From positions 434,001-498,000 of the forward strand of contig NZ_AP017558.1 of NCBI RefSeq assembly GCF_002355635.1: DNA of 64,000 nucleotides. Reading direction: 5' to 3'. Source of the DNA: Halopenitus persicus. GTDB lineage: Archaea > Halobacteriota > Halobacteria > Halobacteriales > Haloferacaceae. The notes beneath the pieces were generated by a model. It made no database searches. It was not told the origin of the DNA and saw only the letters and a list, made by a program, of their open reading frames with translations. The position numbers were made by a program, and so were the translations under genes. Of the stretch, positions 24,987 to 28,772 are shown piece by piece (position 1 is the stretch's first letter; each line of letters opens with the position of its first letter).

Positions 24987-26129
24987 TCAGGCCGCGACGA
25001 CCTGTACCGGCACGAGCATGAAACACGTCGCGCCGACGAGGAACGTCGCGATCCCGACGATCAGCCGCGGCCATCCCAGCTCCGACTCGTCGAGCGGAGT
25101 CGCGGAGCCGGAGACGGCGATGACCGTCGCGAACAGCCCCCAAAAGGCCCACAGCCCGACGGATTCGTTGATCCCGTAATCGAGGACGAGATGGAGGTAC
25201 GCCGCGATCGAGAACAGTGCGCCCGGAACCAGGGCGGCGAGCGTCTCCTGGCGTTCGCCGAGCATCGCCCGCGTCATGTGGCCGCCGTCAAGCTGGCCGA
25301 CCGGAAGCAGGTTCAACAACGTGAAGAACATTCCGACCCAGCCGCCGATGACGACCGGATGGACCGCCTTGGTGGGATCCTCGTATCCGGTCGGCCGGCC
25401 GAGCGCGTCCGCGATCCACGCCAGCAGCGGCGGGTCGTTGAAGACGATGACCTCCCCGGATCGCTGTAACACCCGTTCGGGAACCGCGATCGGGTCCAGC
25501 GAGAGGCCGATCGCCGTCACCACGACCGTGGCGAGCAGCCCCGCGATCGGTCCGGCGGCGCCGATGTCGAACAGGACCCGACGCGAGGGGATCCGCCCCT
25601 TCATGCGGATGATGGCTCCGAGCGTTCCGAAGGGAAAGACGAACGGGATCACGTACGGCAGCGAGACGTTGACCCCGTAGTACCGCCCGGCGACGTAATG
25701 GCCGAGCTCGTGGGTCAACAGGACCCCGAGAACCGCCGCGGTGAACGGCCACGCCTGGAGCATCGTCAACGGATTCGACCGGATCGTCGAGAGCGGAACG
25801 TAATACCAACCGTAAGCCCCGACGAACAGCGTCGTGAGCACGGTCGCGATCAACAGGCCGAGGTTGGCCCATGGGATCCCGTCCGGACGCGTCCCGATCG
25901 GTCGCGCCAGGAGGACGTGGCCCCCCTCGACCTGCCGGAGGTCGACCTCATAGCCCGCCTCGTAGAACGCCGGTGCCACCCGGTCGAGGAGCGCCCGTTC
26001 CGGCACGAGCGACTCGCCGACGTACTGGAGCGTCTCGCCGTCGCGGCGAACGTCGACCAGATGAAAGAACGACTCGAGCTCTTCGGGTCGCGGGACGGGA
26101 TCCGGGTCCACGTCCTCGCTGTCTGCCAT
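24987..26129 (-). CDS. Site-2-protease-family intramembrane metalloprotease
   Basis: A 380-residue membrane protease. The zinc motif HELGH is at residues 140-144 (LLTHELGHYVAGRYYGV), and the distal aspartate lies in LLPVGQLDGGHMTRAM. About six to seven hydrophobic helices surround these. The N-terminal ~80 residues are soluble and acidic, resembling the regulatory domain seen in other haloarchaeal S2P homologues. The enzyme cleaves transmembrane segments of membrane-bound regulators; its substrate here is unknown. ATG at 26129; a duplicated core promoter lies just upstream (26141-26188). Confidence 0.9.
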   Translation of the reverse strand: MADSEDVDPDPVPRPEELESFFHLVDVRRDGETLQYVGESLVPERALLDRVAPAFYEAGYEVDLRQVEGGHVLLARPIGTRPDGIPWANLGLLIATVLTTLFVGAYGWYYVPLSTIRSNPLTMLQAWPFTAAVLGVLLTHELGHYVAGRYYGVNVSLPYVIPFVFPFGTLGAIIRMKGRIPSRRVLFDIGAAGPIAGLLATVVVTAIGLSLDPIAVPERVLQRSGEVIVFNDPPLLAWIADALGRPTGYEDPTKAVHPVVIGGWVGMFFTLLNLLPVGQLDGGHMTRAMLGERQETLAALVPGALFSIAAYLHLVLDYGINESVGLWAFWGLFATVIAVSGSATPLDESELGWPRLIVGIATFLVGATCFMLVPVQVVAA

Positions 26130-26140
26130 TGCCCGCGGTA

Positions 26141-26188
26141 CGTCGTCCGATCCTATAAACCCCGCGTCGTCCGATCCTATAAACCCCG
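26141..26188 (-). promoter_or_regulatory. Tandemly duplicated core promoter of the S2P gene
   Basis: A perfect 24-bp tandem duplication (26141-26164 and 26165-26188) carries, on the minus strand, GGGGTTTATAGGATCGG, a strong TATA-like box with a preceding G-rich BRE-like stretch. The proximal TATA is ~28 bases from the ATG (leaderless start); the distal copy would give a ~24-base leader. The duplication therefore yields two potential start sites. Confidence 0.65.
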
Positions 26189-26210
26189 CGTCGAAGCCAC
26201 GACCCGCCGG

Positions 26211-27236
26211 TCACGACTGCGTGGCGTCGTCGTTCGACTGGTCCCGTTCGATGATCCGGCGGACGCCCGCGTCGAGCTCCACGAGGTGACACAGCGGATT
26301 CCCGGGATAGACGACGGGATTCTCGAGGATTCCGACGAGCAGACCGGTGAACGGCGCCTCGACGGTGGCGTCGTCGTTTTTGAACGGGTTCGTGATCGTC
26401 GCGATCCGGTCACCCTCGTGCACCAGCGACCCGCGCTCGTAGTGCATATCCACGATCCCGCCCGTGTCCGCGCGGATCCACGTCTTCTCGTCGGACCCGG
26501 AGATGATCGTTCGCCAGCCGGGCCATCGAACCGACGCTCGCTCACGGAGTCCGTACTCGGCGAACGCCGAATCGACTCCCTCGAGCGCCTCGTCGATCAG
26601 ACCCCGCTGAAACCGGTGGGCCTCGCCCATCTCGATCGTGATCGTCGGGATGTCAGCCGCGGTCGCCTCCCCCCGGAGCGTCCCGTTCGGCCCCTCGCTG
26701 TCGATCACGACGTTGGAGCCGAACGAGAGCGCGAGTCGGTGCACGTCCGGGTCGGCCATATCCGCACGTACGTGGAGCATATTCGTCCGTCCGCGGGTGG
26801 AGGTGTGGAAATCGAGCCCGACGTCACAGGGCTCGATGAAGTTGGTGAAGATCCGGTGGGCCATCCGTTTCGAGCTCGTCGACCCCTCCTTACCCGGGAA
26901 CGACCGGTTGAGGTCGCGGTCGTAGACGGGGAGATACCGCTGTTGGGCGAGAAATCCCGGCACGTTCAGCACGGGAAGACACACGAGCGTGCCGGCCAAC
27001 TCCGACGGGTCCAACTCGCTGGCGACCTCACGGACGACCTCGATGCCGTTGAGCTCGTCACCGTGGGCCGCGGCCGAGAGGAACGCCGTGGTTCCGGGCC
27101 GCTCGCCGTTGATGATGGTCACGGGGATCCGAACCGGGTCGCCGAGGTAGGTCTCGCTGATCCCGTACCGAATGTTCTGCCGCTCGCCGGGGCCGACTCG
27201 CCCTCCGTTATAGGTGAAGGCCTCGTCGTCGCTCAT
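26211..27236 (-). CDS. Succinylglutamate desuccinylase/aspartoacylase-family hydrolase (AstE-like)
   Basis: A 341-residue M14-like zinc hydrolase. The metal site is recognisable: HGDELNGIEVVREV (His and Glu ligands), the VYDRDLNRSFPG motif, and GLDFHTSTRGRTN with the third ligand His; the catalytic Glu is likely in TITIEMGEAHRFQ. The C-terminal ~90 residues form a beta-rich lipoyl-like domain (ADTGGIVDMHYERGSLVHEGD). The family hydrolyses N-acyl or gamma-glutamyl amide bonds. It is divergent from a RimK-type glutamate ligase fused to a retropepsin domain, suggesting it reverses or processes that enzyme's product. A TATA candidate ATATATAAACC (minus, 27259-27268) gives a leaderless start at 27236. 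Confidence 0.85.
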   Translation of the reverse strand: MSDDEAFTYNGGRVGPGERQNIRYGISETYLGDPVRIPVTIINGERPGTTAFLSAAAHGDELNGIEVVREVASELDPSELAGTLVCLPVLNVPGFLAQQRYLPVYDRDLNRSFPGKEGSTSSKRMAHRIFTNFIEPCDVGLDFHTSTRGRTNMLHVRADMADPDVHRLALSFGSNVVIDSEGPNGTLRGEATAADIPTITIEMGEAHRFQRGLIDEALEGVDSAFAEYGLRERASVRWPGWRTIISGSDEKTWIRADTGGIVDMHYERGSLVHEGDRIATITNPFKNDDATVEAPFTGLLVGILENPVVYPGNPLCHLVELDAGVRRIIERDQSNDDATQS

Positions 27237-27422
27237 ACGTCCCCGAGCGCGGGCGGCGGTTTATATATGCCGTCGTGGGGATGGCCGCGTGAACGGATAC
27301 CGTCGTGGGGACGACCACGTGACGTGCCCACGAGACACGTCCTGTGAGCAGTCCAGATATCACGATCGATACCGGGATTGATACCGGACGTTTTTACCCG
27401 GGTCCGGTCGAGCGATCGATCG
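27237..27422. promoter_or_regulatory. Divergent promoter region, AstE-like / RimK-retropepsin
   Basis: The minus TATA (GGCATATATAAACCG, 27256-27270) and plus TATA (CGTTTTTACCC, 27389-27399) each lie about 27 bases from their ATG. Between them an approximate duplication, CCGTCGTGGGGA(C/T)G, occurs at ~27271 and ~27300, and CACGATCGATACCGGGATTGATACCGG contains two GATACCGG copies (27358-27386). Confidence 0.5.
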
Positions 27423-28772
27423 ATGACCGGGGACACCGCTCGCGTCGGGGTACTGTCGCTACACAACAGCAAGGAGACGAAGGCGATCCTGAACGCCGTC
27501 GAGGACCTGGGCCACGAGCCGTTCTGGCTGCGCAAGGAGAACACCGCGATCGAGGTCACCGACGGGCACGTCAGCATCGAGCCGGACGTCGACGTGGTGC
27601 TCAACCGGCTGCTGCTCTCGAACACCGACCAGCCCGCCGAACACCTCGGCCTCGCGACCACCTTCGAACGGATCCGGCCGATGCTGAACGAGCCCGATGC
27701 CGTCCTCGCCGCGATCCACAAGTTCGCGGCCGCGGCGACCCTCGCCGACTGGAACGTTCCGGTCCCGGACGCCCTGCTCGCGCTCTCGAACGACCGGCTC
27801 AACCAGGGCCGCGAACGGTTCGGCGACGTGGGCGTGTACAAGACGGCGATCGGCACCCACGGGGGCGGGACCTGGAAGGTCGATCTCACCGAGGCCGTCA
27901 ACCCCAAGGTGGGCAACCGCCAGGCGTTCCTCCAGAAGCTCATCGAGCGCGACGACGAACGCCACCGTGACCTCCGCGTCTACGTCGTCGGCGAGTCGAT
28001 CGTCGGCGCGATGTACCGCTACGCGCCGGAAGGCGACTGGCGGACGAACGTCGCCCTGGGCGGCGACGTGGAGAACGCCCTCGATGATATGCCCGACGAG
28101 GCGGCCGAGATGGCCCTGTATGCGGCCGAGGTAATGGGGCTCGATTACGCCGGCGTCGACCTCATCGAGGGGTACGACGGCTGGTACGTGCTCGAGGTCA
28201 ACCCGACGGCCGGATTCAAGGGGCTGTTCGAGGCGACCGGCATCTCGCCGGCACCACACATCGCCAAGCTTGCGATCGAGGAAGCCGGCGGGACGGTCGA
28301 CGACGACCGCGTCGAGACCATCGCCGGCACCCTCGACGACTCGCGTCCCTCGTGCGCGCCGCCGCTGTCGAAATCGCCCTTCGAGGAGGCACCGATCATC
28401 GGCTACATCGAGGAGGTCGTCGCGACGGGGACCTCCGGCTCCACCCAGGCGCTCGCGAAATCCGACACCGGCGCCACGCGGACGAGCATCGATACGCAGC
28501 TCGCCGCCGAGATCGGCGCCGGCCCGATAAAGAGCATGACGCGAGTCAAGTCGGGAAGCGTCAAGTCCGGCAAGGCGCGGCCGGTCGTCGACCTGGTGAT
28601 CGGTATCGGCGGGACACAACACACCGTAACCGCCAGCGTCGAGGACCGTGGCCATATGGAGTACCCGCTGTTGCTCGGCCGCGACATCCTCGAACACTAC
28701 CGTGTGGACGTCCGCAAGCGGGTCGACGAGGAGCGTCCCGACGCGGCGGATCCGGAACTGCTCGAGGAGTAG
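27423..28772 (+). CDS. rimK: RimK-type ATP-grasp glutamate ligase fused to a retropepsin-like (RimB/PF05618-type) domain
   Basis: A 449-residue two-domain protein. Residues ~1-290 are a RimK-family ATP-grasp amidoligase: VGVLSLHNSKETKAI start, DVGVYKTAIGTHGGGTWKV ATP loop, LRVYVVGESIVGAMYR, and Mg-binding YVLEVNPTAGFKGLFEATG. Residues ~322-435 match the 'ATP-dependent zinc protease' family, which is really a retropepsin fold: KSDTGATRTSIDT holds the active-site Asp348-Thr-Gly, and YPLLLGRDILEHY is the typical closing motif. In bacteria these are usually separate genes near an AstE-like hydrolase. Here they are fused and the AstE-like gene is divergent. RimK adds glutamate to carboxylates or protein tails; archaea lack ribosomal S6, so the substrate is different. 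Start 27423 fits the promoter. Confidence 0.85.
   Translation: MTGDTARVGVLSLHNSKETKAILNAVEDLGHEPFWLRKENTAIEVTDGHVSIEPDVDVVLNRLLLSNTDQPAEHLGLATTFERIRPMLNEPDAVLAAIHKFAAAATLADWNVPVPDALLALSNDRLNQGRERFGDVGVYKTAIGTHGGGTWKVDLTEAVNPKVGNRQAFLQKLIERDDERHRDLRVYVVGESIVGAMYRYAPEGDWRTNVALGGDVENALDDMPDEAAEMALYAAEVMGLDYAGVDLIEGYDGWYVLEVNPTAGFKGLFEATGISPAPHIAKLAIEEAGGTVDDDRVETIAGTLDDSRPSCAPPLSKSPFEEAPIIGYIEEVVATGTSGSTQALAKSDTGATRTSIDTQLAAEIGAGPIKSMTRVKSGSVKSGKARPVVDLVIGIGGTQHTVTASVEDRGHMEYPLLLGRDILEHYRVDVRKRVDEERPDAADPELLEE

Follow-up and report, generated by a model that had tools for sequence, protein, structure and literature searches.

It is through ribosomal protein S6 that polyglutamylation, together with a protease dedicated to it, is known from bacteria. 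What, then, would comparable machinery act upon in haloarchaea, a group without S6, where it proves to be near-universal? The question is raised by a locus in a window of 64,000 nucleotides of the Halopenitus persicus genome, in which a RimK-like ATP-grasp ligase and a retropepsin-like domain are fused in a new domain order. The fusion is kept or lost together with a zinc hydrolase partner, and its conserved glutamate tail suggests a target, such that the question of what RimK-type enzymes modify where S6 is absent can be put to a direct test in Haloferax species amenable to genetics. As originally predicted, S6 is lacking: the family (PF01250) was absent from all four archaeal genomes tested, this one included, and was found in 10 bacterial controls. 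A methanogen RimK (L080 1962-2864) passes the cut-off of the “S6--L-glutamate ligase” equivalog model and S6 was not found in that genome, so the label is an annotation trap.

The RimK-retropepsin fusion (P0001, 449 aa) occupies 27423..28772 on the forward strand and is a single open frame across haloarchaea; the AstE/aspartoacylase-type zinc hydrolase (P0002, 341 aa) occupies 26211..27236 on the reverse strand, starting at 27236 and transcribed divergently from the fusion. The coordinates and strands of the pair, and the position of Asp348 in the fusion, are all as the original prediction gave them. The preferred start of the fusion is ATG at 27423, not TTG at 27378. Between the two genes lie 186 bp (27237..27422) with a TATA-like box for each, TTTTTA for the fusion (27391-27396, forward strand, about 27 bp 5′ of ATG 27423) and TTTATATAT for the hydrolase (27260-27268, reverse strand, about 25 bp 5′ of its ATG). 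Since the boxes are found at similar distance in the inspected relatives, where the divergent layout is also kept, the region looks like two back-to-back promoters rather than the shared promoters that had been proposed, and both transcripts are probably leaderless. A direct repeat in the same region (CCGTCGTGGGGA..CC.CGTGA, window 27265-27325) was considered as a conserved regulatory site and rejected because it is not kept in other Halopenitus. On the other side of the hydrolase gene, a duplication of about 28 bp with CCTATAAA at window 26133-26190, 5′ of a site-2-protease-like gene (24987-26129, reverse strand), looks like a duplicated promoter.

Among 145 Halobacteria genomes with a completeness of at least 90%, both genes are present in 131 (counting two, G092 and G123, whose AstE match may be a paralogue since it is just 62% identical and far from the fusion), neither in 13, AstE alone in one and the fusion alone in none. 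With 131 of 145 genomes carrying it, the fusion is not a chance occurrence. The sole genome with AstE and without the fusion (L048, in G109) has none beside AstE. In 86 genomes the two genes diverge within 400 bp of each other, and in 121 they are no more than 6 kb apart. The pair is thus not separated in most genomes, and the predicted association stands, because the genes co-occur almost perfectly and usually as divergent neighbors. The 13 genomes with neither gene belong to nine genera; at least four genera (g3, g21, g34 and g40) also include a sister genome with both, from which it follows that joint loss has happened repeatedly. In one family (f4: L040 1457-4049, L043, L060 and L062), a GNAT-DUF5816 gene and/or a polysaccharide-type flippase gene lies between AstE and the fusion, upstream of the latter and co-directional with it; being limited to a minority of genomes, neither was accepted as a core part. 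No third gene consistently linked to the pair was seen beyond shared synteny, and viral contigs yielded no relative.

The ligase half of the fusion (residues 99-281; 27717..28265, forward strand) matches Pfam RimK with 84.5 bits (cut-off 21), and the modelled N-terminal half matches RimK structures in Foldseek with an E-value of about 1e-13. Its Mg- and ATP-binding residues K140, D246, E258 and N260 are present, such that the motifs are intact as had been claimed, and from these retained residues a glutamate ligase activity is predicted. The fusion passes the cut-off of the RimK family TIGR00768 (147.6 bits vs 143.4) and misses that of the S6--glutamate ligase RimK equivalog NF007764 (61 bits vs 331); its best score among the equivalog models is that of MptN, 128.7 bits, which is under the cut-off of 350. 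Phylogenetic analysis places the ligase domain in a separate clade (99/99) with a long stem, outside RimK (98/94), MptN and ArgX. The original naming of this half as RimK therefore calls for a correction, in that it falls apart from true RimK in the tree, and membership in MptN/CofF was discarded, given a score under the cut-off and a position outside the MptN clade. Of the seven residues by which RimK contacts polyglutamate, five (S7, R64, S68, R189 and N262) correspond to S12, R62, S66, R185 and N260 of the fusion, and two (R8 and S14) are without a match. MptN differs from RimK at S7 and S68; the window protein keeps both, plus R64. Because the clade falls outside RimK and two of the seven contacts are not kept, the amino acid that is ligated and the acceptor that receives it are uncertain.

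A RimB/RloA-type retropepsin domain follows at about residues 322-432 (28386..28718, forward strand), with a GRD motif at 419-421. It matches PF05618 with 34.3 bits (cut-off 27), its HMM finds the solved bacterial retropepsins 9g59 (E 7.6e-9), 9g58 and 2pma, and a profile alignment with methanogen RimB sets DTG on DTG (probability 66%, E 5.7e-5). It is important to stress that the predicted retropepsin fold rests on these profile matches, since the structure model of the domain is unusable (AlphaFold pLDDT 39.8 for the domain alone and below 35 within the full protein). The RimB equivalog NF052261 is absent among the matches of the fusion, and RloA3 reaches 35.4 bits vs a cut-off of 210. The predicted catalytic motif, Asp348-Thr-Gly, lies at 28464..28472 on the forward strand with K346 just ahead. 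In RloA, K46, R114 and R137 bind polyglutamate and D48 is catalytic; cleavage of polyglutamate needs K46/D48 together with R114 and R137, which are 23 residues apart, and the R114A and R137A substitutions harm it most (PMC12239564). All three binding residues have equivalents in the fusion, namely K346, R386 (28578..28580) and R409 (28647..28649), both arginines encoded on the forward strand and putatively polyglutamate-binding. K346, the DTG triplet with D348, R386 and R409 are invariant in both alignments that were used (A1, 24 rows; A2, 37 rows), the spacing of R386 and R409 is 23, and the longer motif DTGA is invariant in A2. The flap region, about 28 residues shorter than that of RloA, is net positive and the most positive stretch of a protein that is otherwise acidic. 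Two paralogues of the fusion (L071 and L078), located on other replicons or sites away from AstE, have DTG changed to AEP or ADP and have lost the arginine equivalent to R386; they are likely pseudo-proteases.

The divergently encoded partner matches AstE_AspA_cat (PF24827) with 150 bits (cut-off 25). Its HGDE zinc motif (H58 and E61; 27054..27065), the third zinc ligand H144 (26805..26807), a predicted substrate motif R107-D-L-N110-R111 (26904..26918) and the predicted catalytic glutamate E202 (26631..26633) are all encoded on the reverse strand, and H58, E61, H144, N110, R111 and E202 are invariant in 53 orthologues; the AstE/aspartoacylase-type zinc hydrolase that had been predicted is intact. 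The protein misses the equivalog cut-offs of DoeB (81.9 vs 402.7), AstE (19.7 vs 305.65) and aspartoacylase (30.3 vs 180). In the tree, a single clade (96/93), apart from DoeB, unites the AstEs that are linked to RimK, whether bacterial, methanogen or haloarchaeal; this clade also takes in four unlinked rows. R107 tracks linkage to RimK, being found in 19 of 19 RimK-linked rows and in one unlinked row; R188 is found in all RimK-linked rows and also in several unlinked ones. A second AstE paralogue (L182, G000:C1:741302-742282) is 57% identical, has no RimK neighbor and carries Gln in place of R107.

If S6 is not the acceptor, what is? A C-terminal glutamate is what the characterized ligases of the RimK superfamily load, as ArgW and RpsF both end in this residue: the C-terminus of P. 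fluorescens RpsF is DNADE, and the same genome as the fusion encodes ArgX, another RimK-family ligase, next to the carrier ArgW, which ends in ELEEDWGE. The terminal glutamate of ArgW is essential in another haloarchaeon (PMC10433800). The fusion itself closes with a variable C-terminal linker ending in ...DPELLEE (28722..28769, forward strand), a proposed acceptor tail with a conserved last glutamate. The last residue is Glu in 105 of 107 distinct fusions, and 86 of the 107 (80%) end in -EE, these tails not being independent, since the sequences are related; clustering at 85% identity gives 36 representatives, of which 35 have Glu as the last residue. The linker ahead of it varies in length and sequence among orthologues. 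For comparison, 18% of families of gene-like haloarchaeal ORFs end in E and 3% in EE, and -EE is the ending of 4 of 104 neighboring AstE proteins. Asp is never the last residue in the 107 fusions, which argues that the terminal Glu is not a matter of mere acidity. The last codon is GAG in 103 of the 105 Glu-ending fusions, and a DNA-level bias is therefore possible; because GAG is nearly constant while the stop codon varies, a constraint at the protein level is likely. Five or more consecutive encoded glutamates are missing from most tails. Among the RimK, RimB and RimBK proteins checked from bacteria and methanogens, none shows a comparable tail, and the conserved Glu tail of the fusion is a new finding here.

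No report of polyglutamate or of RimK activity in haloarchaea was found in the literature. Since archaea are without S6 and the characterized relatives modify a C-terminal glutamate, we propose a self-contained cycle in which the candidate target is the fusion's own C-terminus; polyglutamate as the product, self-modification and the physiological role are all things that we infer. That the locus encodes a haloarchaeal module for writing and trimming poly-alpha-glutamate has, in our estimate, about an even chance of being right, the own C-terminus being the most likely primer or acceptor because of its conserved encoded glutamates (-LEE/-EEE) on a flexible tail. Weighing against it are the ligase clade outside RimK with its two unmatched contacts, the shorter flap, the low-confidence model of the C-terminal domain, the relatedness and near-uniform GAG codon of the tails, the scarcity of encoded five-Glu runs and the lack of literature reports noted above. 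We hold more tentatively that this is a self-substrate enzyme, with writer, cutter and encoded acceptor tail in one chain and a self-contained polyglutamate cycle across haloarchaea. The ATP-grasp half would add glutamates to the alpha-carboxylate of the C-terminal Glu by ATP-dependent acyl-phosphate chemistry; the retropepsin half would act as a dimer to which each chain contributes one Asp348, and cut runs of about five or more glutamates; the AstE-type hydrolase, for which the bond cut is presumed, would take glutamate (or a terminal amide) off the short products. The fusion would thus extend and clip itself or a neighboring copy, the outcome being release of oligoglutamate and/or setting of the fusion's own activity. 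The writer-trimmer-eraser set of the original prediction stands as far as the existence of ligase, retropepsin and AstE is concerned, and its equation of the deacylase with the eraser is conjecture.

Several other readings of the same locus can be envisioned. The module may glutamylate the C-terminus of another archaeal protein, with the fusion tail regulating the ligase or protease as a pseudosubstrate or docking element instead of being an acceptor. The known RimK target is indeed a separate protein, one whose family is absent here, and a tail positioned close to the two active sites might inhibit or prime one or the other; yet no candidate target was seen, no further gene is consistently linked to the pair apart from shared synteny, and a Glu-ending tail resembles the known acceptors ArgW and RpsF, which leaves this reading rather unlikely. 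We consider it improbable that the ligase makes a small-molecule conjugate, e.g., F420 or folate capped with an alpha-glutamyl group in the manner of CofF and MptN, with the retropepsin and AstE providing turnover. Such a role would suit a ligase clade outside true RimK whose best equivalog score is to MptN (under the cut-off, as noted above), but the fusion does not group with MptN, two polyglutamate-contact positions match RimK and not MptN, and the residues for cutting polyglutamate are kept in a retropepsin without obvious use on a coenzyme cap.

More doubtful still is an ArgW-like carrier, in which the tail Glu would carry an amino acid through biosynthesis, for AstE to release in the manner of ArgE or LysK. 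A ligase and hydrolase pair fits this, and the RimK-family enzyme ArgX does load the terminal Glu of ArgW, but the retropepsin and the polyglutamate-binding residues are left unexplained, and a kinase, a reductase and an aminotransferase are all missing next door. That the fusion is a conserved but catalytically quiet relic, linked to AstE by ancestry only, seems very improbable: the two distant paralogues have lost the DTG motif and the arginine equivalent to R386, as such a relic might, but the catalytic residues are intact in the aligned main orthologues and the two genes have repeatedly been lost jointly.

The proposed polyglutamate module has several relatives. Methanogens carry rimB, rimK and an AstE-type gene unfused, in a single run that reads in one direction; gene order is the same in Salinivibrio and Acaryochloris, and it is rimK-AstE-rimB in Vibrio nigripulchritudo. 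Since unfused three-gene sets occur in methanogens and bacteria, the ligase/retropepsin/AstE set itself is neither archaeal nor new, and Iyer et al. 2009 reportedly described related linkages. The rimB-rimK-AstE operons contain the same three parts as the haloarchaeal locus, with an AstE of the same clade, but they are unfused and co-directional, and methanogen RimKs nest in bacterial RimK, whereas the fusion ligase does not. A Vibrio match that seemed to share the order of the fusion was rejected, being a pair of neighboring genes joined by reading across a stop codon. Mechanosensitive-channel genes adjoin such sets in a methanogen (L080 368-1261, judged by sequence only) and in two Vibrionaceae (L174 1390-2301 and L178 4438-5307), a hint of an osmotic link.

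The bacterial Rim system of Pseudomonas (PMC7343187, PMC11957791) likewise pairs an ATP-grasp glutamate ligase with a polyglutamate-cutting retropepsin, but RimK and RimB are products of separate genes and target S6, whereas the fusion is one chain, has no S6 and belongs to a different ligase clade; an AstE third member goes unmentioned for that system in the two papers. Pseudomonas RimB stimulates RimK, yielding free poly-alpha-glutamate, and a permanent fusion could therefore couple both activities. The original statement that the bacterial genes are separate agrees with the three-gene sets but not with a published bacterial RimB-RimK hybrid of opposite order, with RimB at the N-terminus (PMC11957791), from a survey that covered bacteria only. 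The Desulfotalea hybrid resembles the fusion in holding both domains in one chain, and the hybrid protease is active in vitro, but its RimB is N-terminal and the haloarchaeal retropepsin is C-terminal; given this reversed domain order, the fusion was not filed as a RimBK hybrid. In the hybrids of Thioclava and Aureibacter, RimB is N-terminal too; no AstE adjoins these two, and the C-termini are not Glu tails. RloA/RloC of Pseudomonas (PMC12239564) share with the fusion a RimB-like retropepsin with conserved Lys/Arg contacts to polyglutamate and an ATP-grasp partner; unlike the fusion, RloA is a secreted protease with a membrane partner, RloB, and no AstE. ArgW/ArgX (LysW/LysX), finally, combine a RimK-family ligase with an encoded C-terminal Glu, as the fusion does, and that Glu is loaded; there the acceptor is a separate small carrier and no retropepsin is involved, whereas the fusion carries both its own tail and a retropepsin.
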